Source: a virus. Taken from it: DNA of 29,284 nt. Below, piece after piece: positions 1,027 to 26,400 of the stretch; within the stretch, counting starts at the first letter, position 1, and the number at the start of each line of letters is the position of its first letter. Both the position numbers and the translations under genes were made by a program. The notes below the pieces were generated by a model. The model saw nothing but the letters and a program-made list of their open reading frames with translations. It was not told where the DNA came from and ran no database searches. The stretch spans positions 1 to 29,284 of IMG/VR virus record IMGVR_UViG_3300006750_000052; one strand, written 5' to 3'.

Positions 1027-2796
1027 TTAACCCTCACACGCTAAACACGCTTCGTCCGAAATTGAATCGAACATATACTGTCTAAGAGCTTCATCAGATA
1101 CTTTATCTGCACGCTTTATAGCAGCGCTTCTCAGATAATATAGGGTTTTTACCCCCCTTTTCCACGCCATTATATGTACAGCATGAAGTTCTTGTTTTGA
1201 AACATCTGCTGGGAAAAATAGATTAAGAGACTGACTCTGACAAATATGTTGTTGTCTATCAGCAGCAAATTCTATAAGCCATCTCTGATCTAGTTCTGGG
1301 CCCGTCTTAAATATGTCTTTAGTATCTTCATCCAAAAACTCTAGGTGTTGTACTGAGCCGTCCTGAGTAATAATACTTTGCCATACTTCTTCAGTATTCA
1401 TTCCTAACTCATCTAAACAGTGTTCTAAGTATTCGTTTTTGAGGAGGCTAGAGCCTGTTTTAGTTTTTTGAACAAATGCATTAGCGCGGTAGGGTTCAAT
1501 GCTTGGGCTAGTGTTACCACAAATAATACTACTGCTAGCGTTAGGAGCAATAGCCAATAAATGGGAATTGCGAATACCATAACCAATAGCGTCTGGACAT
1601 TCTCCTCGTTCTTTTGCCAATAACTTTGTCGCTTCATTTGCTTTTTCCTTAATTTCGTTAAACATTTTCAAATTCTTAATTTTTGCTATTACACTTTCAA
1701 AAGGGATACTATGTCTCTGTAAATAAGCGTGAAATCCCATAGCCCCTAAACCTAAACTTCTTTCCTGTTTTGCACTGTATACTGCCCTGTGTAATTCTGG
1801 AGGGGCATTTGTGATAAAATATTGAAGTACATTATCTAACATTCTAATTAAATCAGGGATAAATAACTTATTGCCTTTCCACTCATCATATTCTTCCAGA
1901 TTTACACTTGAAAGACAGCAGACTGCAGTTCTATTCTCGTCTGTGGGTAGTGTAATCTCTGAACATAAATTGGAGTGATGAACTTCTAGCCCTAATTCTT
2001 GTTGAAACTTTGGCACAGCCTTAGCAACTGTATCTTTAAACATTATATAAGGTTCGCCAGTCTCAACACGGTTTTGTATGAGTTTTACCCACAATGTTTT
2101 TGCGGGTACCGTTCTTATTACTTCTCCAGTATGGGGGTCTTTTAACTCCCAAGTGTCATTAAAATTTGCTTCTTTTGTTGCTTTTTCAATCAATTCCATA
2201 AAGTCATCAGTAATAACAACAGCATGGTGCAGATTAGTAGATTTTCTATTAATATCACCTCCAGTTGGCTTACGTATATCGAGAAATTCTTCGATTTCTG
2301 GATGAGATATGTCCAAATATGCTGCATAACTTCCTCTCCTGGTTATTCCTTGGGAAAAGGCTAGCATTTCCCCATCTACTACTTTTAAAAAGGGAATCAC
2401 CCCTGTACTTTCAGAGCCGTTACTAGTTGAAGATCCTACACTTCTTACCTTCCCCCAGTTACCCCCGATACCTCCTCCTACTGAAGATAGAAAAGCGTTT
2501 TCAGTATAATGAGATGTTATCCCGCCTCTACTGTCTTCTACATGATTTAAAAAACAACTTATAGGCATGCCTCTTTCAGTACCTCCATTACTTAGAATAG
2601 GGGTAGAAAACATAAACCATAGTTTACTAGCATAATCATATAATCTTTGGGCGTGTTCTTCATCATCAGAAAAAGCTGTTGCAGCACGCGCAAAAGCTTC
2701 TTGAGGAGAAGTTTCGTTATCTAACAAGTATCTATCATTCAGAGTTTTTATACTAAACTCTGATAAGTATTTATCCCTATTGTAATAAATATCCAT
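1027..2796 (-). CDS. nrdA: Class I ribonucleotide reductase alpha subunit
   Basis: Catalytic subunit of ribonucleotide reductase. Key residues are present: C81 in a GMPISC context and C293 (the redox pair), the N276-L-C278-S-E280 active-site triad, the Y553-Y554 radical-transfer pair in TLYYLRS, and a C-terminal CLACEG (C584, C587) that receives electrons from thioredoxin or glutaredoxin. The protein is 589 residues, against about 760 for E. coli NrdA. The missing length is at the N-terminus, where the ATP-cone allosteric domain would be, so overall activity control by dATP is probably lost. ATG at 2796 has GGAG 8 bases upstream and lies inside the end of the exonuclease gene (20-base overlap). 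Paired with nrdB directly downstream. Confidence 0.95.
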   Translation of the reverse strand: MDIYYNRDKYLSEFSIKTLNDRYLLDNETSPQEAFARAATAFSDDEEHAQRLYDYASKLWFMFSTPILSNGGTERGMPISCFLNHVEDSRGGITSHYTENAFLSSVGGGIGGNWGKVRSVGSSTSNGSESTGVIPFLKVVDGEMLAFSQGITRRGSYAAYLDISHPEIEEFLDIRKPTGGDINRKSTNLHHAVVITDDFMELIEKATKEANFNDTWELKDPHTGEVIRTVPAKTLWVKLIQNRVETGEPYIMFKDTVAKAVPKFQQELGLEVHHSNLCSEITLPTDENRTAVCCLSSVNLEEYDEWKGNKLFIPDLIRMLDNVLQYFITNAPPELHRAVYSAKQERSLGLGAMGFHAYLQRHSIPFESVIAKIKNLKMFNEIKEKANEATKLLAKERGECPDAIGYGIRNSHLLAIAPNASSSIICGNTSPSIEPYRANAFVQKTKTGSSLLKNEYLEHCLDELGMNTEEVWQSIITQDGSVQHLEFLDEDTKDIFKTGPELDQRWLIEFAADRQQHICQSQSLNLFFPADVSKQELHAVHIMAWKRGVKTLYYLRSAAIKRADKVSDEALRQYMFDSISDEACLACEG

Positions 2797-3625
2797 CTAT
2801 AAGTCTCCGATCTATTTCTGATATATTATCAGCTCCTATTGCGTCTTCACAATATGTTAATAAGTCCATTAATTGATAGTTTGTGAGTAACACCTCGCCA
2901 TTAGCATTTAATTCTTGAATGTGTTTATACTTGCTATCTATAGGTAATCTGTCGTAAATGTCATATGCACTTCCCAGGTTGTTTATAAGACTGACTGCTC
3001 TTTTCGGGCCAATCCCTCTAATTCCTGAAACATTGTCTCCTTTATCTCCAACAAGACATTTATATGATATATAATTGTCTATGTCTACTTCGTAGTGTGT
3101 TGACCAGTTATCTACTGTTACTTCTTTTCTCGTAACATAAGAAAACCTAGATACTCCTTCCCGTATTAATAAGTCCCAGTCTCTATCACTAGAAATTAAC
3201 CAAATATTTCCATATTTGAATTTATCTCTATATTTTACTAAATAAGCTGCGATATCGTCTGCTTCTACCCCTTGGAATCTGAGCACGGGGTACTCTTTAG
3301 ATAAGCGTACTAAGGTTTTTTCATACTCTTCGAAAAAATCTTTAAATGCTTTCTTCTCTTCTTCTGTCTGTTCCGCATACTTATCTTTTCTATTTTGTTT
3401 ATAATCAGCACTTATAGCTCTTCTATATGTAGATGTTCCTAAATCTGAGGTGATAACTATATTAGCACTTTTATAAGAATTAGCAAGAGAAAGTACGGTT
3501 CTTACATATTCTTCGCAAAAATCAGTTTTGCCTTGATGTTTCCATCGGAAAGCTAAATTTAACGAATCTACTATTAATACTGATCCCGAATCTTTTTCGA
3601 GTACTTCTGAAAAATTAAAAGCCAT
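2777..3625 (-). CDS. 5'-3' exonuclease / flap endonuclease (FEN/RNase H type)
   Basis: PIN-like 5' nuclease of the FEN family (T4 RNase H, T5 and T7 exonucleases), expected to remove RNA primers and 5' flaps at lagging-strand junctions before ligation. Visible acidic metal-binding residues: D20 (IVDSLN), D61, the E121-A-D123-D124 cluster, D147 and D149 (SSDRDWD), and D194/D197 in GDKGDN, followed by the H3TH motif GIRGIGPKRA (201-210) that grips DNA. The 282-residue length fits a stand-alone phage enzyme. The DNA polymerase in this window lacks a 5' nuclease domain, so this gene supplies that activity. It overlaps the upstream nuclease by 11 bases and nrdA by 20. Confidence 0.9.
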   Translation of the reverse strand: MAFNFSEVLEKDSGSVLIVDSLNLAFRWKHQGKTDFCEEYVRTVLSLANSYKSANIVITSDLGTSTYRRAISADYKQNRKDKYAEQTEEEKKAFKDFFEEYEKTLVRLSKEYPVLRFQGVEADDIAAYLVKYRDKFKYGNIWLISSDRDWDLLIREGVSRFSYVTRKEVTVDNWSTHYEVDIDNYISYKCLVGDKGDNVSGIRGIGPKRAVSLINNLGSAYDIYDRLPIDSKYKHIQELNANGEVLLTNYQLMDLLTYCEDAIGADNISEIDRRLIDGYLLQ

Positions 3626-4061
3626 TTTCTATAAACTCTATTTGTTCTGAATTTAACCACTCTTCTGCTAGTAGCACATAACAATTTAACCAGGAAATAA
3701 ATATATATTTACAACTCTTTGGTTTATGCTCTGTTGTTACAAATACTTTTGATCTGTCATATTTAAAGAATAATAAAGGTTGTTGATTTCCGTTCTCTGC
3801 TTGTACTAATAGTTTTTTCCACCACCGAATAAGATTATTGGTTTTTTCAGCGGTAAATATCTTGTCTGTTAAAGGAGACTCTGCATAATTTTTTACTTCT
3901 ATACAGTAATAATTCTTTTGGTGGGGAACATAGAGGTCTCCTTTTAAATACTCTAATGCTCCGGAGGAAGGAACTCGTTCAAACTTTAAGCCCGTATGCT
4001 CCCTTAACATATCTCTTACTAGATATTCACCCCGTGCACCCTTTGCTCTTGAATCTACCAT
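3615..4061 (-). CDS. PD-(D/E)XK nuclease, Hjc-like Holliday-junction resolvase candidate
   Basis: 148-residue protein with the layout of the archaeal Hjc / small PD-(D/E)XK nuclease fold: a helix starting KGARGEYLVRDML with E12, then GDLY with D42, then IEVKNY with E55 and K57, the expected catalytic set. It lies between SbcC and the FEN nuclease in the recombination operon, which fits branch resolution of replicating DNA. A VRR-NUC or other restriction-like nuclease cannot be excluded from sequence alone. The start codon lies directly after the upstream stop (3615-4061, then SbcC from 4062), and the end overlaps the exonuclease start. Confidence 0.75.
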   Translation of the reverse strand: MVDSRAKGARGEYLVRDMLREHTGLKFERVPSSGALEYLKGDLYVPHQKNYYCIEVKNYAESPLTDKIFTAEKTNNLIRWWKKLLVQAENGNQQPLLFFKYDRSKVFVTTEHKPKSCKYIFISWLNCYVLLAEEWLNSEQIEFIENGF

Positions 4062-5858
4062 CTAATCTAACCTACTTATATTTTGTTCCTTTACTATTTC
4101 TATCTTATCTAATAGAGGGTGGGTCCACCCATGACTAACTACATAAGTGTTTAAGTTTTCTTCTTGAGTTAAAATTTCTACCAATTTTTCTCTTCCTGGG
4201 TCATCTAACACACTGATTACTTCATCTAAAAACAATGTATTAATTCTTGACTTAGAAATACTACTCATTAACTTGCGAATCGCTATCAATGTTGCAGTAT
4301 TTACTCTAGCTAATTCTCCCGATGATAACGCTAGAATATCTACTATCCTTGCATTATCTGTTATTTGCACATTTAATTTGTCATTCAAAACTACAAATTC
4401 AAGTGTAAACCTACCATCAGAAAATTCGGCTAAATAAGTATTAACTAACTCTTCTAATTCTTTAACTAAATTCTCTATTTTGTAGGCTAAAAGCCCGTTT
4501 GTGCTAAAAGCTTTTTTGAGTATTTCTAAATTTATAAATACACTGTCATGCTTATCTAATTCTTTTGTAGAGTCCCTGAGCTGTTCTTTGAAAGCTTCTG
4601 TTTGTTCTTGTATGACTTGGATCCTTGTGTTATTTTTCGTGCGCTTTTCGTTTTCTTTTGAGATTTCTCCCAGTCTTTCTCTTGTTGTACGAAGTCTTTC
4701 ACGCACTCTTCCAATGCGGTCAGTAAGATTTTGACCGTCCACTTGCTCACTTGACAAAGCATGGTCAATACGGCTATACAAATCCTCCCAATTTTTCTGA
4801 ATACTAATTTTAGTTTCGTACTCAGAGTTGTTTTCTTTGATTTTCTTGATGGCCCTGGAAATGTCGCCACGTTTTTCTTTTGCCTCCTCTATATTATCTA
4901 GTTCGACTTGCATTAAGTTTTTTTTAAACTGTGAGTCTACTGTCTGCTCACAAGTAGGGCAGTTATCCCCTAATTTTTTCATCTTTTCTAATAATAAATT
5001 AGAAGTACTTATAGAAGCCTTTATACTACCTTCTTCGGTTTGTAAATTATCGTATGATATTATTTCAGTCGCTTTTATTTCATTGGCTTTATTAATATTT
5101 ATTTGTTTAAATAAGGTTTTATAACTATTGTTGGTTTTTATCTTTTTATTTTTTTGCGAGATATTTTCAAACTCTAACAATAAAGACCTTAATTCTTCAT
5201 CGTCTTTACTCGTATCAATTTCTAAATTTAACATTGGAAGTATGTTAGTACTCTCCAATTTATTGTCATACAGCCACTTTTCTATCGTTGCTATAGTCGA
5301 ATTTATCTCAGTGATCTTGATATTTGCGTGTCTAGAGGCTTCCTTGAAAACTTCAAACAACGCTACATATTCTTCTAAATGCAATAAATCAATTAAAAAC
5401 TTTTTCCTGTTCGTATCTGTAGCAGTTAAAAATTGCAAACTACTATTAGTATTTTGATAAACTAATTGACTAAATGTTTTGAAATCTATACCTATAACCC
5501 CCTGAAGAGTCTTATAAGTATTTGTAGCTGTGTGACTAGATATATCCTCCCCGTCTTTAAGGAGCTTCACTTTTATACTTGTTTTTCGGTTTACTACTAC
5601 TTCATATAGAGTATCTTCTTTAGTAAAGGCTAGATAAATATCATATCCATTATTGACATATCTATTAGGAATATCAGCTTTTTTTATTCCTTTTGAGTTT
5701 TTATTATATAATACCTCTTCAATAATTAATGGAATAGAAGATTTTCCCATTCCATTTTTACCAATTATTTGTGTAACATTACTACTGTCTAAGTCAAGTT
5801 CGTTGTTCTCACCGTAGCTAAAGCAATTATTCCATTTGAGCTTTTTGAGAATAATCAT
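4062..5858 (-). CDS. SbcC / T4 gp46-like recombination ATPase
   Basis: Large subunit of an Mre11-Rad50 type nuclease complex that resects DNA ends for recombination-dependent replication. Domains in order: N-terminal ATPase half with Walker A IIGKNGMGKS (31-40); a long coiled coil (about 170-290); a zinc hook CPTC at C300-C303; the returning coiled coil (about 310-475); and the C-terminal ATPase half with ABC signature LSSGE (511-515) and Walker B TLFLDE (D545, E546). The length of 598 residues is close to T4 gp46 and much shorter than bacterial SbcC. The start overlaps the end of the gp47-like gene by 32 bases, consistent with a coupled two-subunit complex. Confidence 0.93.
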   Translation of the reverse strand: MIILKKLKWNNCFSYGENNELDLDSSNVTQIIGKNGMGKSSIPLIIEEVLYNKNSKGIKKADIPNRYVNNGYDIYLAFTKEDTLYEVVVNRKTSIKVKLLKDGEDISSHTATNTYKTLQGVIGIDFKTFSQLVYQNTNSSLQFLTATDTNRKKFLIDLLHLEEYVALFEVFKEASRHANIKITEINSTIATIEKWLYDNKLESTNILPMLNLEIDTSKDDEELRSLLLEFENISQKNKKIKTNNSYKTLFKQININKANEIKATEIISYDNLQTEEGSIKASISTSNLLLEKMKKLGDNCPTCEQTVDSQFKKNLMQVELDNIEEAKEKRGDISRAIKKIKENNSEYETKISIQKNWEDLYSRIDHALSSEQVDGQNLTDRIGRVRERLRTTRERLGEISKENEKRTKNNTRIQVIQEQTEAFKEQLRDSTKELDKHDSVFINLEILKKAFSTNGLLAYKIENLVKELEELVNTYLAEFSDGRFTLEFVVLNDKLNVQITDNARIVDILALSSGELARVNTATLIAIRKLMSSISKSRINTLFLDEVISVLDDPGREKLVEILTQEENLNTYVVSHGWTHPLLDKIEIVKEQNISRLD

Positions 5859-9648: not shown

Positions 9649-11959
9649 ACTCTGAGCCTATAAAAAGATGGGGGCTATCATTTATATAGTCTCCATACTG
9701 ATCTTCAAACTTGCCCATTGAGTAGTCATCTCCTGTATCAAAATCGCATCCTATAGGAGCGCCTGATATAGAGATACCTCGATCTCTTTGAATAAACTCT
9801 TGTAATGAACTGCAATATATATCCAGCTCTTCATTTGGTACTTCTGCTAATATAGAGTCATGTACTAAAGCAAATATTTTAGCTTTCATATTTGATTTTT
9901 CAATAAATTCGTTCATTTCTATTGCGCCGAGGAGGTTAATATCAGAAGCAGTAGACTGCACCAGAAAATTAAGACCAGACCTAACGGTATGACTTCTAAT
10001 AGCTTTATCTTCACTTTTAACATTTGGTAATCTCCGTTTGCGCCCGAAAAAACTATACACAAATCCATTAGCTTCTATAAATTTTTGATTTTTTTCAATC
10101 CATTCTTTTAATTTTTTGAATGACTTAAAGTAATTATATATAACCTCAGAGGCTTCTTTGACACTGAAAAGTTTTCCAGAGTCTTTTGTTACTTGTTGGC
10201 TAATTTTATGTGGCCCGGCTCCATACATGATTCCAAAACTTACTGCCTTGGCAGCTTGTCGCTGAGTGGGGTATAGCCTGGCCACGTCTTCTGCTTCACA
10301 AGGCAACTTAAATACTGTTTTGGCAATTGTACTGTGAAAATTGCCGCCCTCTCGAAATACATCCATAAGTGCTTCATCATTTGCCAACTTTGCGGCGACA
10401 TATACTTCTGCGGTTGTCAAGTCCATTGCAACTATCTGCGACCCCGTTGAGGCTGTAATACATCCTTTGACAATTGGATTGTCTCGAGGAATTTGTTGCA
10501 TATTTAGCTTACCGCTACTGCTAAGACGACCAGAAGTTGTAGAGTGCAGGTTAAAAGAAGTCCTAAGACGGCTATCCTTATCCAATTGCGGTATGATTTT
10601 GTCCAAATAAGTATTTTTAATTTTGGATTTTTGACGGATTGCCAAGATATGTTTGGGAAGTTCAGATTTTTCTGCGAGCTTATTAAGGACTTCTGAGTCT
10701 GTTGAGTGCTGCCCCGTTCCAGTTTTCTTATTAGTAGGATTAAGGCCAATAAAATCAAACAGAAGGCCCCGAAGTTGTACAGTGCTATTAGGGTTAAAAG
10801 GTTTACCATTTAGTTTCTCGAATTTTTCTATATCAAAATCTTTATACATAGACTTGATAGATTCATCAATGTTTTGCTGCATTAAATCTTGAGCTATAAT
10901 TAGTCTTGTTTTATCAAAAGGAACACCGTTTTCTTGAATGTTCAATAGAAATCTAGTACCTGGAAGTAATAAGTTTTCATATACCCAAGCTAGTTTTTGG
11001 TTTTCTTTAACTTTTATAAACTTCTCAAACAGTTTAAATGTAACTAATGCATCCATAGCTGCGTATGTTTTCATTACATCAAAAGGAACTTCTTGATAAT
11101 TGAACTCGCCTTTAAGGATTCTATTTTCCTTTCTGTAGTTATCTATCCAGTCATGCATCGGCTTTTCGTAATCTCCGTAAGGAGTATACTTCAATGCTAA
11201 TGCTTTTAATCCGTGATGCCCTGGATTTTCATTGATCAAATAAGATAGAAGCATAGTATCCTCTATCTTTGGAAACGTAAATCCGAAATGATACTCAAAC
11301 CAAGCTAAGTCGAACTTAGCATTATGAAAAATTACAGTCTTTTCATTAAATAACTTTTGTAACTTTTTCTCTATTCTTCCTTGAAAATCAATACAATCAG
11401 TACTAATATAAGCTGCGGTTTGTCCATCATAGCACAAAGACATTCCCAACATATACCCATTTCTAGGATACAAATTAGTTGTTTCTGAGTCAAGGGCTAT
11501 GCAGCTATTTTCATGTGCGAGAGCTTTATCTATAAAATTTTCGGCTTCTTTAGCTTCTGTAATTCCAAAAGCAATACTATCATCAATTACCACATCTTCT
11601 ATTTCGCCCTTAATATATTTAATGATATTAAGTTTTGAGGTGTCCCAAGTCTTTTGAGCTTCGGGTTTGAAAGCGAGCATGGCGGGATTAATTACTGGTA
11701 AAAACTTATTTTCAACTTTCTTACCAGAGTATTCCACGACTGAATTAATTTTAGTAAAGTATTTCAAAGACTCACTTCCTACTAAAATAATCCAATCATA
11801 TAATGAGGTGTCTATGTCAATATCGCAATCTCGTTTTAATACTTTCTTGATTGCGGGGTCTGAACATAATTGATACTGATCGAAGGAGAATTCCTCTCCG
11901 AAATGTTTAACGTAATCTGTTTTACTAGGCTTCGTTTCTACTAATGCAACTTTAGGCAT
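9620..11959 (-). CDS. DNA polymerase, family A, with 3'-5' exonuclease
   Basis: Replicative polymerase. The N-terminal ~130 residues are not recognised. A DEDDy proofreading exonuclease follows (Exo I D157/E159 in DSETTNLYP, Exo II D217 in HNAKFDLAW, Exo III Y299/D303 in TYAAMDA). Then the polymerase: motif A D513 (MDLTTAEVY), motif B R567-x3-K571...Y579-G (RQAAKAVSFGIMYG), motif C H700-D701 (LVHDS). The residue equivalent to E. coli F762 is Phe (F575), a position used to class marine phage PolA types. Motif A (DLTTAEVY) departs from the usual DYSQIELR but keeps Asp and Glu. There is no 5' nuclease domain; that activity is at 2777-3625. 779 residues. The start overlaps the primase end by 8 bases. 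Confidence 0.95.
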   Translation of the reverse strand: MPKVALVETKPSKTDYVKHFGEEFSFDQYQLCSDPAIKKVLKRDCDIDIDTSLYDWIILVGSESLKYFTKINSVVEYSGKKVENKFLPVINPAMLAFKPEAQKTWDTSKLNIIKYIKGEIEDVVIDDSIAFGITEAKEAENFIDKALAHENSCIALDSETTNLYPRNGYMLGMSLCYDGQTAAYISTDCIDFQGRIEKKLQKLFNEKTVIFHNAKFDLAWFEYHFGFTFPKIEDTMLLSYLINENPGHHGLKALALKYTPYGDYEKPMHDWIDNYRKENRILKGEFNYQEVPFDVMKTYAAMDALVTFKLFEKFIKVKENQKLAWVYENLLLPGTRFLLNIQENGVPFDKTRLIIAQDLMQQNIDESIKSMYKDFDIEKFEKLNGKPFNPNSTVQLRGLLFDFIGLNPTNKKTGTGQHSTDSEVLNKLAEKSELPKHILAIRQKSKIKNTYLDKIIPQLDKDSRLRTSFNLHSTTSGRLSSSGKLNMQQIPRDNPIVKGCITASTGSQIVAMDLTTAEVYVAAKLANDEALMDVFREGGNFHSTIAKTVFKLPCEAEDVARLYPTQRQAAKAVSFGIMYGAGPHKISQQVTKDSGKLFSVKEASEVIYNYFKSFKKLKEWIEKNQKFIEANGFVYSFFGRKRRLPNVKSEDKAIRSHTVRSGLNFLVQSTASDINLLGAIEMNEFIEKSNMKAKIFALVHDSILAEVPNEELDIYCSSLQEFIQRDRGISISGAPIGCDFDTGDDYSMGKFEDQYGDYINDSPHLFIGSEYDSYVQNTG

Positions 11960-16210: not shown

Positions 16211-16238
16211 TATGTTATCCTTTTTGATTGAAGTGTAT

Positions 16239-16268
16239 ATTATACTAAAGTTTTGAGATAAAAGTCAA
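16239..16268 (-). promoter_or_regulatory. Sigma70-type promoter P3 (ligase C-half / HTH gene)
   Basis: TTCTTGACT, 18 bases, TATAAT on the minus strand. It lies between the methylase-like gene and the second ligase gene. Confidence 0.83.
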
Positions 16269-16289
16269 GAATTATTTTTTTAAAGGTTA

Positions 16290-23154: not shown

Positions 23155-23464
23155 TTACTATTCCTTCTATTAATCCCGGCTTTTCGTAGGCATTTCGAGT
23201 TAAATCATGTTCTCTCAATGTTTGTGATAGTCTATCCCTGTATCTTTCAGCGCTTTGTAAGTTAGAGGTTAACTCTGAATTTAACCGTTCAAATTGTACT
23301 ATATCGATTTCTAACTGAGTTATTGTGGCTTGATTGATACCGGAAGTGATTTTTAATTCTGTGTTAGTTTCTGTAAGGTTTTTGAGCGCCCTGGAAGTGA
23401 GAAAATAGTAAGTAGCAAAGCCTATTCCCAGTATTAATATCATGCCTATTAAAATTCTACTCAT
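23102..23464 (-). CDS. i-spanin-like inner-membrane protein (Rz type)
   Basis: 120 residues: an N-terminal transmembrane anchor (about 4-22, ILIGMILILGIGFATYYFL), then a long periplasmic coiled coil (TETNTELKITSGINQATITQLEIDIVQFERLNSEL...), and a C-terminal EKPGLIEGIVNDATSQVFSDL segment typical of phage Rz-like proteins. Overlaps the o-spanin lipoprotein gene downstream. The pair indicates a Gram-negative host. Confidence 0.82.
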   Translation of the reverse strand: MSRILIGMILILGIGFATYYFLTSRALKNLTETNTELKITSGINQATITQLEIDIVQFERLNSELTSNLQSAERYRDRLSQTLREHDLTRNAYEKPGLIEGIVNDATSQVFSDLESITAN

Positions 23465-23466
23465 AT

Positions 23467-23808
23467 CTATGTTTCATCAGTATCAAGATTGAGAAATGTT
23501 TGTGCGTTAGGGCAGAAAGAATTCTCTCCCTTGACAGCGCCGACGAGCCATCGCTCGCATAAATCTTCACTTTGACAACCGCGGCATCGCTTCCGCACTT
23601 GTTTCATAGTGGCCTCAGTTTGTGGGTAGGATAGGGTTTGCGGATAAGTACGTGTAGCAATTCTAGGATCCAAGCCAACACGCTCCATCATGCGCGTCAT
23701 ACGCTTGGCCGAGGCATCCCTGAAGTGGCTGAGTAATGCCACAGCAAGGACTATACCCGTGAGTATCGCAAATACGGGGAGATAAGCTTCAAATAATATG
23801 GAATCCAT
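23467..23808 (-). CDS. Membrane protein with DUF6455-like C-terminal domain
   Basis: 113 residues: an N-terminal transmembrane helix (about 10-28), then MMERVGLDP, then a four-cysteine domain RCRGCQSEDLCERWL ... NSFCPNA (C75, C78, C84, C99). The Cys pattern with terminal FCPNA matches what I know as DUF6455, found mainly in alphaproteobacteria. The region is visibly richer in G+C than its neighbours, so it may be a host gene acquired by the phage. AGAGG ribosome site before ATG 23808. Function unknown; a zinc- or redox-binding role is possible. Confidence 0.7.
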   Translation of the reverse strand: MDSILFEAYLPVFAILTGIVLAVALLSHFRDASAKRMTRMMERVGLDPRIATRTYPQTLSYPQTEATMKQVRKRCRGCQSEDLCERWLVGAVKGENSFCPNAQTFLNLDTDET

Positions 23809-23820
23809 GGTTCATACCTC

Positions 23821-24012
23821 TTACTTGTCGTCGCTGTCAGGGTGCCACAGTAAAGCACAGCTCTCAACGTTCGCGCATGGCGGTGACCATACACACCCGT
23901 TTAGTTTACAATCCTCTTCGATCTGCTCAAGTAGCTCCTGCTCGATTATGTCGTGGTCTTTCGGCATGCCGGCGTACAGCATGTCGCGTCGTGGGCGGTT
24001 TGTTTTGCACAT
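23821..24012 (-). CDS. Small cysteine-containing protein
   Basis: 63 residues, MCKTNRPRRDMLYAGMPKDH..., with five cysteines (C2 and four in the second half: KLNGCVWSPPCANVESCALLW). GAGGAA ribosome site before ATG 24012. Stands 12 bases before the DUF6455-like gene and shares its higher G+C, so the two may have arrived together. May be a zinc-binding small protein. Not recognised. Confidence 0.65.
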   Translation of the reverse strand: MCKTNRPRRDMLYAGMPKDHDIIEQELLEQIEEDCKLNGCVWSPPCANVESCALLWHPDSDDK

Positions 24013-24040
24013 AAGGTTTCCTCATTAGTTAATAAGTAAA

Positions 24041-24076
24041 CGAATAGGGGCCTAAGCCCCTATCCGGTTTTTTGTT
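24041..24076. terminator. Hairpin with T-run on the plus strand
   Basis: 8-bp stem (24044-24051 with 24056-24063, loop CTAA) followed on the plus strand by CCGG and six T. On the minus strand, the direction of the genes, the tail is only moderately T-rich. It may work in both directions, separating the sHSP unit from the DUF6455 unit and blocking antisense RNA. Confidence 0.6.
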
Positions 24077-24187
24077 TTACGCAAGTATTATTATCCACCA
24101 AGGTAGTCTAGTGGCGAACCATGTTATTCCGACACTAACTGCTATAGCTTCTGCGACTTCCGCATTTTGTTTACACTTATTTTCCAC
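24077..24187 (-). CDS. Tiny membrane peptide, 36 residues
   Basis: GTG start at 24187 with a strong AGGAG site 5 bases upstream, 8 bases after the sHSP stop. MENKCKQNAEVAEAIA... then a hydrophobic, Trp-rich end (VGITWFATRLPWWIIILA). Likely a single-span membrane peptide. Function unknown. Confidence 0.6.
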   Translation of the reverse strand: MENKCKQNAEVAEAIAVSVGITWFATRLPWWIIILA

Positions 24188-24645: not shown

Positions 24646-24948
24646 TTGCCCCTTTCGGTGGCAGATTATCAAAATGCTACTTATTGGGTGATAAGGAAAG
24701 TAGCCACCCCCAGTTAACTACTTACGCAGCTAACGCAAACACTTCATCGTTTGCAGTTGTGTTGTTGCAGTAACGTTGCTTCCCCACGATTCTCCTGATA
24801 GCCTTTCTTAGCCTGTCGAACCTAGATCACCCCCCATAATCTTTGTGCTCAGTTGCACACTATCATTAGAATTTGGTTGGTGGAGGTGTCGGGATTTGCA
24901 CCCGAGTCCACACTAATATTATACTACCTATCAACGAATTTAAAAAAT
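24646..24948 (-). ncRNA. ssrA: Circularly permuted (two-piece) tmRNA
   Basis: Read on the minus strand, the 3' part comes first. The acceptor piece has GTGGAC, a T-arm (TCGGG-TGCAAAT-CCCGA) and an acceptor strand CACCTCC-A-CCA ending at 24878. A 43-base intervening stretch holds a hairpin (TGTGC/GCACA). The coding piece begins about 24834 with GGGGGTGATCTAGGTTCGACAGG, the tmRNA 5' signature. The two acceptor strands pair over all 7 bp with G3-U70, the alanine identity pair. The tag frame (24722-24754) encodes ANDEVFALAA. After it comes an H-type pseudoknot: 24705-24709 with 24686-24690, and 24698-24704 with 24676-24682. A P2-like pairing (CTATC in the coding piece with GATAG at 24928-24932) joins the pieces. 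Outer ends are approximate. Role: rescue of stalled ribosomes and tagging for proteolysis. Confidence 0.93.
24722..24754 (-). other. tmRNA tag reading frame (ANDEVFALAA, stop)
   Basis: Resume codon GCA at 24754, ten codons, then TAA. The encoded tag ANDEVFALAA differs from the E. coli ANDENYALAA only at the two middle residues and ends in the LAA degron recognised by ClpXP, so tagged proteins should be degraded by the host. Confidence 0.88.
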
Positions 24949-25092
24949 TCAATTAGAAGGTACATCATCTACTTCAATAATTTGTTGTTCTATAAGGTAC
25001 CCTATGGTTGCTACAATACCTGTTTTCCTGCCCAAGGCGTAGCTAGAAATTCCGCAGCCCAATACAACTAATATAAATAGTATTTCAAACAT
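24949..25092 (-). CDS. Small membrane protein, 47 residues
   Basis: One N-terminal hydrophobic helix (EILFILVVLGCGISSYALG), a basic step (RKTG), a second weakly hydrophobic stretch and an acidic tail (EVDDVPSN). AGAGGAC ribosome site before ATG 25092. Its stop codon directly abuts the start of the tmRNA acceptor piece, and both lie behind promoter P6, so the tmRNA is probably cut from a transcript that also carries this gene. Function unknown. Confidence 0.65.
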   Translation of the reverse strand: MFEILFILVVLGCGISSYALGRKTGIVATIGYLIEQQIIEVDDVPSN

Positions 25093-25164: not shown

Positions 25165-25210
25165 AGAAGAATAGAAAATCCCCCTAACAGCGGGAGCTAT
25201 TAAGGGGATT
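25165..25210 (-). terminator. Intrinsic terminator of the large noncoding RNA
   Basis: On the minus strand a ~15-bp stem (AATCCCC at 25210-25204 with GGGGATT at 25183-25177, continued by TTAATAGC with GCTGTTA) and a 4-base loop TCCC, followed by TTTTCTATTCTTC. Orientation fits RNA coming from 25846 leftwards. Confidence 0.88.
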
Positions 25211-25846
25211 AAAAAGGAACTGAAGGTCAAGTGGCCCTTCTAATGCGTGTTCCAACACAGCCTTTGTTTCATTCCCACTTAATTATATTAAGGGGGGTAG
25301 GTATAGTGTGTTTGCTTCACTACTGAATTTTTTCTCGCAGATCTACGTTCCTAAGCAGAGTGGTGTATTCAGAAGACCAGAGATTATGCCACTTATCTCA
25401 AAGTACCTATCGCTTATCTTTAGCGTCCCCCCGATAGGAGTTAGACGTTTTTGACCCTATCATCTTCACCCTAGGAAAGAATGAGTACGAGGGTCGGAGG
25501 GATTACTATATAGCGTTGTTCCCACCACTATTATCCGCTATTTGCAAGTAGCCATATATAGATTTCAGACTGTACAATACGTCTCCATAAAGGTGATGTC
25601 GCCTCCGTCTGATGAGCCGAGCGATCCAGAGTTTATACTCAGATAACGCCTTGCTGAGTCCTTAACCTTCCCGTTTTTTCAAACGAAGCAGAAGAAAAAG
25701 CAACCGGTGTGCCACCACTTGATTCCTTCGCCCAACGTATGATTGGTTGGGGATGGGTAAGTAAGTCGGCAAGTGGCGAACATCTTCTAGCGTTCGGCCG
25801 AAGCCCATGTTAGCGGTATGGGGCCACTTGCCTAGCACCTGATTAA
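25165..25846 (-). ncRNA. Large structured noncoding RNA candidate (~680 nt)
   Basis: No credible gene, but dense local folding on the minus strand that ends in a strong terminator. Stems of 5-10 bp that I can pair: 25823-25832/25768-25777 (10 bp, enclosing 25804-25808/25818-25822 and 25778-25781/25792-25795 plus a cUUCGg loop), 25731-25736/25746-25751, 25637-25642/25654-25659, 25506-25512/25555-25561, 25453-25458/25490-25495, 25406-25411/25433-25438, 25380-25384/25395-25399, 25323-25328/25367-25372, 25304-25308/25318-25322, 25278-25283/25287-25292, and a long-range 8 bp 25715-25722/25227-25234. It follows a 76-residue gene behind promoter P7. Size, phage origin and a tRNA-like neighbour recall the GOLLD and ROOL ornate RNAs; I cannot confirm membership. 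Confidence 0.78.
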
Positions 25847-25855
25847 TCAAGTGCT
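25834..25855 (-). other. Hairpin at the start of the noncoding RNA region
   Basis: AGCAC/GTGCT arms continued by TTGATT/AATCAG, about 9 bp with one G-U. It contains the stop codon of the 76-residue gene. No T-run follows, so it is not a terminator. It may be where the mRNA ends and the structured RNA begins, perhaps a processing site. Its 5' strand (CACTTGATT) is also complementary to AATCAAGTG at 25716-25724, which allows an alternative fold. Confidence 0.6.
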
Positions 25856-26077
25856 TAATAAAATATTGTCTAATACATTCTGTGCCTGGAGCTTTCTTTC
25901 AGCATCCTTGTAGAGTTCACTCTTCTTGGCTGCTCCAACTTTTTTTATTAACCAAGCGATGTCTGCAGGAGGTGAATCGTTCATCAGCATTATGTATGCG
26001 ATGGCTCCTTCTTTACTACAGCCTTCTTGCAACATACCTGAGTATATCATAAGTATTTCGAATTGGTTTTTTGTCAT
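25847..26077 (-). CDS. Small hypothetical protein
   Basis: 76 residues from ATG at 26077 (GGGAG ribosome site; a longer reading would start inside the promoter region). MTKNQFEILMIYSGMLQEGCSKEGAIAYIMLMNDSPPADIAWLIKKVGAAKKSELYKDAERKL... is helical. It is the first leftward gene after the divergent promoters, so it is expressed very early and upstream of the structured RNA. Not recognised. Confidence 0.7.
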   Translation of the reverse strand: MTKNQFEILMIYSGMLQEGCSKEGAIAYIMLMNDSPPADIAWLIKKVGAAKKSELYKDAERKLQAQNVLDNILLST

Positions 26078-26103
26078 CGTTGTTTCTCCCAGAAAGTTCA
26101 TAT

Positions 26104-26132
26104 ATTATACGGAAAAATAAGCAAGATGTCAA
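26104..26132 (-). promoter_or_regulatory. Sigma70-type promoter P7 (leftward, start of leftward region)
   Basis: TTATTGACA, 17 bases, TATAAT on the minus strand. Drives the 76-residue gene and most likely the large noncoding RNA. Back-to-back with P8, with 56 bases between the two -35 boxes. Confidence 0.86.
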
Positions 26133-26188: not shown

Positions 26189-26217
26189 TTGACAATACAG
26201 GTGAAATTTAGTATAAT
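26189..26217 (+). promoter_or_regulatory. Sigma70-type promoter P8 (rightward region)
   Basis: TTCTTGACA, 17 bases, TATAAT on the plus strand. The expected start of RNA (about 26224) lies only about 3 bases before the ATG at 26227, so the first gene would be read from a nearly leaderless mRNA. Confidence 0.86.
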
Positions 26218-26226
26218 TATCCCATA

Positions 26227-26400
26227 ATGAAAAAAAGACCGTGGACAGTAGAAGAAAAACAAATACTGAAAGATAACTATGGAGTTTTACCACTAAAGGA
26301 CTTATTAGAACTACTTCCAAGTCGCACAGAAAATTCTATTTATAAACAAGTTTCATACCTACGACAAAGAGGATGGACGTTTGGACAAGCACAAATTTAA
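26227..26400 (+). CDS. Small Myb/SANT-like DNA-binding protein
   Basis: 57 residues: MKKRPWTVEEKQILKDNYG, then LPLKDLLELLPSRTENSIYKQVSYLRQRGWTFG, the layout of a minimal homeodomain-like HTH (W-T-x-E-E start, R-T-x-N-S-I recognition helix, R-x-R-G-W end). It matches the modules in the HTH proteins at 14728 and 18680. First rightward gene, directly behind P8 with no ribosome site. Likely an early regulator of the divergent promoters, by inference. Confidence 0.75.
   Translation: MKKRPWTVEEKQILKDNYGVLPLKDLLELLPSRTENSIYKQVSYLRQRGWTFGQAQI

Follow-up and report, generated by a model that had tools for sequence, protein, structure and literature searches.

The window analysed here, a 29,284-bp IMG/VR virus contig (IMGVR_UViG_3300006750_000052), harbors on its minus strand a noncoding stretch of approximately 670 nt that, as comparison with relatives indicates, is a large structured phage RNA that is real, new and rare. 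The RNA is known from three sequences, two of which (the window and contig L004) are near-identical, while the third, L241, is a diverged homologue. Most likely, it would represent a class of large phage RNA that is new but works like GOLLD and ROOL. We hold it to be fairly probable that this RNA, together with a small protein, p77, forms a two-gene early cassette, and that the RNA is early, stable and trans-acting along the lines of GOLLD and ROOL, with p77 as a possible partner.

The cassette and its genomic setting

The window phage is a T5-like marine phage. Its DNA polymerase is ~41% identical to the polymerase of T5-like phages, and a related polymerase is found on at least 80 IMG/VR contigs. 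By our own reading, the window also carries gp46/47-like ORFs and an NAD-dependent ligase split over two ORFs; no tRNA was found in it. On the minus strand, the order of the locus is promoter, p77 ORF, the ~670-nt noncoding stretch, terminator, second promoter, small ORF, tmRNA and Hsp20, and its features are as follows.

26227..26400, plus strand: Myb-like small ORF, the right flank of the cassette, with a divergent promoter of its own
26189-26217, plus strand: promoter of the Myb-like ORF, divergent from the cassette promoter
26104..26132, minus strand: cassette promoter, early-type sigma-70, TTGACA-17-TATAAT, 12/12 consensus matches
25847..26080, minus strand: p77, the leading gene of the cassette, an ORF of 77 aa whose product is predicted to have four helices
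25177..25846, minus strand: large structured RNA, ~670 nt, fold conserved with L241, Rfam matches at chance level only
25177..25210, minus strand: intrinsic terminator of the cassette, 3 compensatory changes relative to L241
25125..25153, minus strand: promoter serving the following unit (small ORF, tmRNA, Hsp20), 11/12, kept in L241
24949..25092, minus strand: small ORF (47 aa) preceding the tmRNA, the left flank of the cassette
24666..24991, minus strand: permuted (two-piece) tmRNA gene, RF04321 and RF01850 both over gathering score
24609-24196, minus strand: Hsp20 gene, downstream of the tmRNA

The diverged homologue, L241 (DQKQ01000288.1), was found through p77 alignment in genome contigs. 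It is a contig of 6.7 kb that was placed in a Flavobacteriales MAG by binning, and since its gene content is that of the window phage, the bin label probably says nothing safe about the host. Among 29 relatives having both neighbouring genes, a gap of 150-232 nt separates the small-ORF start codon from that of the Myb-like ORF, whereas the same gap measures 1,134 nt in the window and 1,151 nt in L241, where it is filled by p77 and the RNA. This difference indicates that p77 and the RNA are an inserted cassette, present or absent as a unit between divergent early promoters; the inserted piece would comprise promoter, p77, large RNA and terminator.

The boundaries of the RNA are conserved. As the first-pass annotation had described, the stretch is gene-free, extending from the p77 stop at 25847 to the small-ORF start at 25092, and no credible gene was found in the ~670 nt of the RNA. 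The strong intrinsic terminator in the same orientation was likewise confirmed, at 25210-25177 on the minus strand; that of L241 was inferred from the alignment, as a simple scan did not flag it. The separation of the RNA from the tmRNA unit by this terminator and a second promoter also stands, and the arrangement is conserved in L241. The permuted tmRNA adjoins the RNA in the same orientation, but it is a separate transcription unit and a separate RNA. The proposed position behind an early promoter held in part: an early-type promoter does lie upstream and is kept in L241 (TTGACG-17-TATAAT, 11/12), but p77, not the RNA, comes first behind it. Because the cassette promoter drives the 77-aa ORF first, the RNA forms the 3' portion of a unit of two genes; no promoter was found directly in front of the RNA, and one promoter serves both. 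With that promoter shared, the RNA might be the 3' UTR of p77 or a product processed from its transcript, and the stand-alone RNA of the first-pass annotation stays a proposal.

The p77 proteins of the window and L241 are 70% identical, and relatives were found in L241, L003, L127, L142-L145 and L147. p77 matches no Pfam or PHROG family. The structure model of p77 consists of four helices (pLDDT 81) and has no match in the PDB at E<=0.001. Since p77 and the RNA are inherited together, we would guess that p77 is the protein partner of the RNA.

Joint inheritance and a single promoter, with none found before the RNA, would also be expected of the main rival, a long structured 3' UTR acting in cis on the p77 mRNA (through stability, attenuation or ligand control) and having no separate life. 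We regard such a 3' UTR as unlikely: the RNA has roughly three times the length of the p77 gene, its core is better conserved than p77, and most p77 relatives (all those named above except L241) have no such RNA directly behind them. Under the favoured trans-acting reading, the RNA would be transcribed early together with p77, cut from the p77 mRNA near a hairpin at the p77 stop codon (P0, a possible processing site), and would accumulate stably, acting in trans as a structural RNA as GOLLD and ROOL may do.

Two-piece tmRNAs are found chiefly in marine and aquatic phages (PMC9004378). In the window, the tmRNA frame GCAAACGATGAAGTGTTTGCGTTAGCTGCGTAA reads ANDEVFALAA by eye; the tag printed by ARAGORN for this permuted tmRNA, EKKNDYKIIIGRPA, differs from it and is a mis-parse of the tool.

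Fold of the RNA and comparison with L241

Single-sequence folding of the RNA gave a z of about -3 on both strands, and two of eight control stretches of the same window reached -4.1 and -4.3. Because controls reach such values, single-sequence folding energy is weak evidence and proves nothing alone. Exact 8-mer inverted repeats were mildly enriched (9 versus 2.9, P 0.024, with the terminator left out). The first-pass annotation had named compensatory changes in homologous loci as the test of its stems, and such changes are seen against one diverged homologue, L241; L004 alone gives no power for covariation, so that the covariation rests on one comparison, window versus L241. The predicted fold opens with a hairpin domain at the 5' end, continues through an arm, a variable domain and an invariant core, and closes with a 3' hairpin that loops back ~480 nt upstream; its parts are listed below.

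25835..25854, minus strand: P0, hairpin at the p77 stop codon; 8 pairs, 2 compensatory, 1 one-sided and 0 broken versus L241
25768..25832, minus strand: P1, 5' domain, 10-bp stem around sub-hairpins; stem kept in L241
25688..25731, minus strand: P3, arm pairing 25731-25723 with 25697-25688; 9 pairs, 2 compensatory, 1 one-sided, 0 broken
25637..25659, minus strand: P4, hairpin ACUCAG/CUGAGU, unchanged in L241
25500..25636, minus strand: variable domain, 41% identical to L241, with most window/L004 differences
25408..25499, minus strand: conserved core of P5, P5a, P6, P6a and PK1; 92 nt, 89% identical to L241
25323..25399, minus strand: P7 (25399-25396/25383-25380) and P8 (25372-25367/25328-25323); 3 and 1 compensatory changes, none broken
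25222..25259, minus strand: P9 and P10, the P10 loop pairing with 25721-25715 (PK2)

Measured against column-shuffled controls, the alignment-fold z was -5.1 for the RNA strand, -4.7 for the opposite strand and -2.2 for the p77 coding sequence. Local helices alignable between the window and L241 numbered 30, with 11 expected (P<1/400, column shuffles), and 4 of the local helices had compensatory changes versus 1.0 expected (P 0.018); when helices at any distance were counted, those with compensatory changes were not significantly in excess (18 versus 13.4, P 0.18). In a post hoc, hand-written list of 15 helices or helix parts, 13 of the 91 pairs are compensatory, 7 one-sided, 71 unchanged and none broken. 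A tool count over the core and P8 found all 70 cells paired and 3 pairs changed on both sides. When the partners were slid by 1-3 columns, pairing fell to 40-51%; the shuffle control for the same region is weak with two sequences, 65 of 500 shuffles reaching the observed value. Judging by these comparisons, we consider the conserved, pseudoknotted RNA fold to be real. A decayed gene, or random intergenic DNA merely looking structured, would agree with the unexceptional single-sequence folding energy; it is contradicted by the comparison with L241, because that shows compensatory changes along with an invariant core, and no long reading frame is common to the RNA and L241. We therefore hold this explanation to be very improbable.

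Two further elements of the first-pass annotation, a perfect 10-bp stem and an 8-bp long-range helix, are present. The stem (25823-25832/25768-25777) is kept in L241 with a different sequence and with bulges, and the helix (25715-25722/25227-25234, 480 nt between its arms) is kept there as CAAGUGG/UCACUUG. The latter corresponds to PK2, CAAGUGG/CCACUUG in the window, in which six pairs are invariant and one is changed one-sidedly; one of its strands lies in the P3 arm. This pairing could be intramolecular or intermolecular; multimeric RNA nanocages, in ROOL with intermolecular kissing loops, are a mark of both GOLLD and ROOL. A competing 10-bp end-to-end helix, CAAGTGGCCC/GGGCCACTTG (25821-25830/25228-25237), is lost in L241 and was rejected. 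In the core, compensatory changes occur in P5 and PK1, and all cells are paired. PK1 is a pseudoknot joining 25436-25432 to 25412-25408, with one compensatory change (UAUCG/CGAUA in the window, UGUCG/CGACA in L241).

Conservation is uneven along the locus. Between the window and L241, DNA identity is 74% for the p77 gene, 86% for hsp20, 88% for the tmRNA and 89% for the RNA core, and 41% for the middle of the RNA. Outside the RNA, the window and L004 differ by 12 substitutions in 4.6 kb; the 3' part of the RNA holds one, and 25500-25651 holds approximately 15 together with two indels (15 and 20 nt). The variability of L004 is possibly a contig-end artefact, as L004 ends nearby; L241 independently shows the same middle part to be the least conserved. 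A fast-changing domain, within a cassette that is either wholly there or wholly missing between conserved genes, would suit a dispensable decoy or inhibitor RNA directed against host defence or host RNA-binding proteins. No sequence link to a defence system was seen, and no CRISPR-like repeat exceeded the threshold; we judge the decoy to be distinctly improbable. As for other rejected candidates, the longest exact complement to the phage's own genes was 13 nt, which speaks against an antisense RNA, and the core, searched against E. coli genomes for similarity to rRNA, had no match.

Known RNA families and further copies

The first-pass annotation had taken the RNA for a member, or a new class, of RNAs such as GOLLD and ROOL. 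Membership was not borne out, a cmscan of the window (cutoff E<=10) and of L241 (cutoff E<=1) having returned neither family, and the new class is the better half of that proposal. The RNA belongs to no Rfam family: over the whole window, the gathering score was reached by tmRNA families only, and matches over the RNA itself at E<=10 were sub-threshold and due to chance, with OLE, HEARO and group I and II introns not among them. L241 yielded at E<=1, apart from the tmRNA families, a single sub-threshold match, which falls within the tmRNA region.

GOLLD has one conserved and one less conserved part, and ROOL an unconserved linker (PMC12286853). Like GOLLD (as described in PMC12286853), the window RNA is a large structured phage RNA of marine samples with a conserved and a variable part; GOLLD often lies near tRNA genes (PMC12286853), whereas the window RNA adjoins a tmRNA. 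GOLLD members are often >800 nt long, whereas the window RNA has ~670 nt and is placed after a small ORF. Like ROOL, it is large, comes from a phage, contains multiple pseudoknots and has an unconserved stretch, corresponding to the linker in ROOL; unlike ROOL, its PK1 and PK2 are of other sequence. Size, phage context, the tmRNA neighbour and the combination of conserved and variable parts could thus also point to a diverged GOLLD or ROOL too distant for the Rfam models. With no covariance-model match to either family in the window RNA or L241, such a relationship is hardly credible to us.

Further copies were sought in several ways. DNA searches of public phage genomes gave nothing convincing, exact-pattern scans of IMG/VR retrieved L004 only, and a DNA search of fifty relatives by polymerase gave essentially short matches, mostly to the promoter. 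When a covariance model of the core was run over 63 loci, 47 related records and 395 genomes, the window and L241 were its sole matches; the 395 genomes belong to the class of the L241 MAG, and among them only L241's own genome was matched. A weak core-model match in L243 (E 0.005) lies in an apparent lysozyme gene and was rejected.

Candidate large RNAs in early operons of related phages

Large RNAs in early operons seem to recur in the T5-like marine phage group, in which two families, A and B, are separate candidates. Family A (L142 3893-4907, L144 3893-4943 and L127 1197-2121, plus strand) is a noncoding RNA of ~0.9-1.05 kb directly behind a D5-like regulator gene that closes an early operon with a p77 relative. 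The L142/L144 pair gave an alignment-fold z of -5.9 with 25 double changes, and family A has no Rfam match. Family B (L122 2131-3130, L130 ~1270-2640 and L150 ~10400-11490, minus strand), a ~1-kb noncoding RNA, likewise follows a D5-like regulator gene. A 53-nt stretch is 90% identical between L122 and L130; fold support is weaker (L130/L150 alignment-fold z -2.0). The two families have in common the motif UUCGNAAAUUG-hairpin-CUAUGUGGAC, on a stem that changes sequence between members. Like these RNAs, which measure ~0.9-1.3 kb, the window RNA belongs to a T5-like marine phage and forms the 3' portion of an early operon, which, as in family A, also contains p77 or a relative. Its inclusion in either family was rejected, as there was no BLAST or nhmmer match, no motif and no core-model match.

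One operon position appears to hold different RNA genes in different phages. A tentative, broader reading, which we find plausible without leaning towards it, is that the window RNA belongs to a new large-RNA class carried as an exchangeable early cassette with the dedicated protein p77, and that several kinds of large RNA, lacking sequence similarity to one another, occupy early operons beside tmRNA and tRNA genes. If true, different RNAs would behave as if solving the same problem for the phage. The further candidate families suggest that T5-like marine phages use large RNAs more often than RNA databases show. The window RNA lies outside Rfam, is bounded by the promoter and terminator of its cassette and paired with one small protein, and is cleanly present in some and missing from other phages that are alike in the rest, which opens its effect to direct study.

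Several minor observations were made in the same phages. L127 ~1211-1376 (plus strand) starts with a tRNA-like piece, GGCCTCC ... GAAGGTTCAATCCCTTC GGAGGCC ACCA, by eye, for which ARAGORN made no call. After the D5-like regulator gene, L145 ~3990-4340 (plus strand) has a permuted-tmRNA-like sequence and L143 ~3010-3170 (plus strand) tRNA-like sequences, both by eye. In L152, L155 and L157 (~2990-3440, plus strand), a third noncoding stretch, which is ~430 nt long and has a TTGACA/TATAAT promoter of its own, lies directly upstream of hsp20, where other relatives have the tmRNA (L152/L155 alignment-fold z -3.6). L154 ~3230-3360 (plus strand), also upstream of hsp20, resembles by eye a permuted-tmRNA acceptor piece without the coding piece. 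In the window, 23386-24090 has a GC content of ~50% versus ~37% and a codon usage unlike the remaining phage, a possible recent gene acquisition. Finally, 16238-16282 (minus strand) is a strong early-type promoter, TTGACT-17-TATAAT, which with its flanks repeats within the phage and across relatives.
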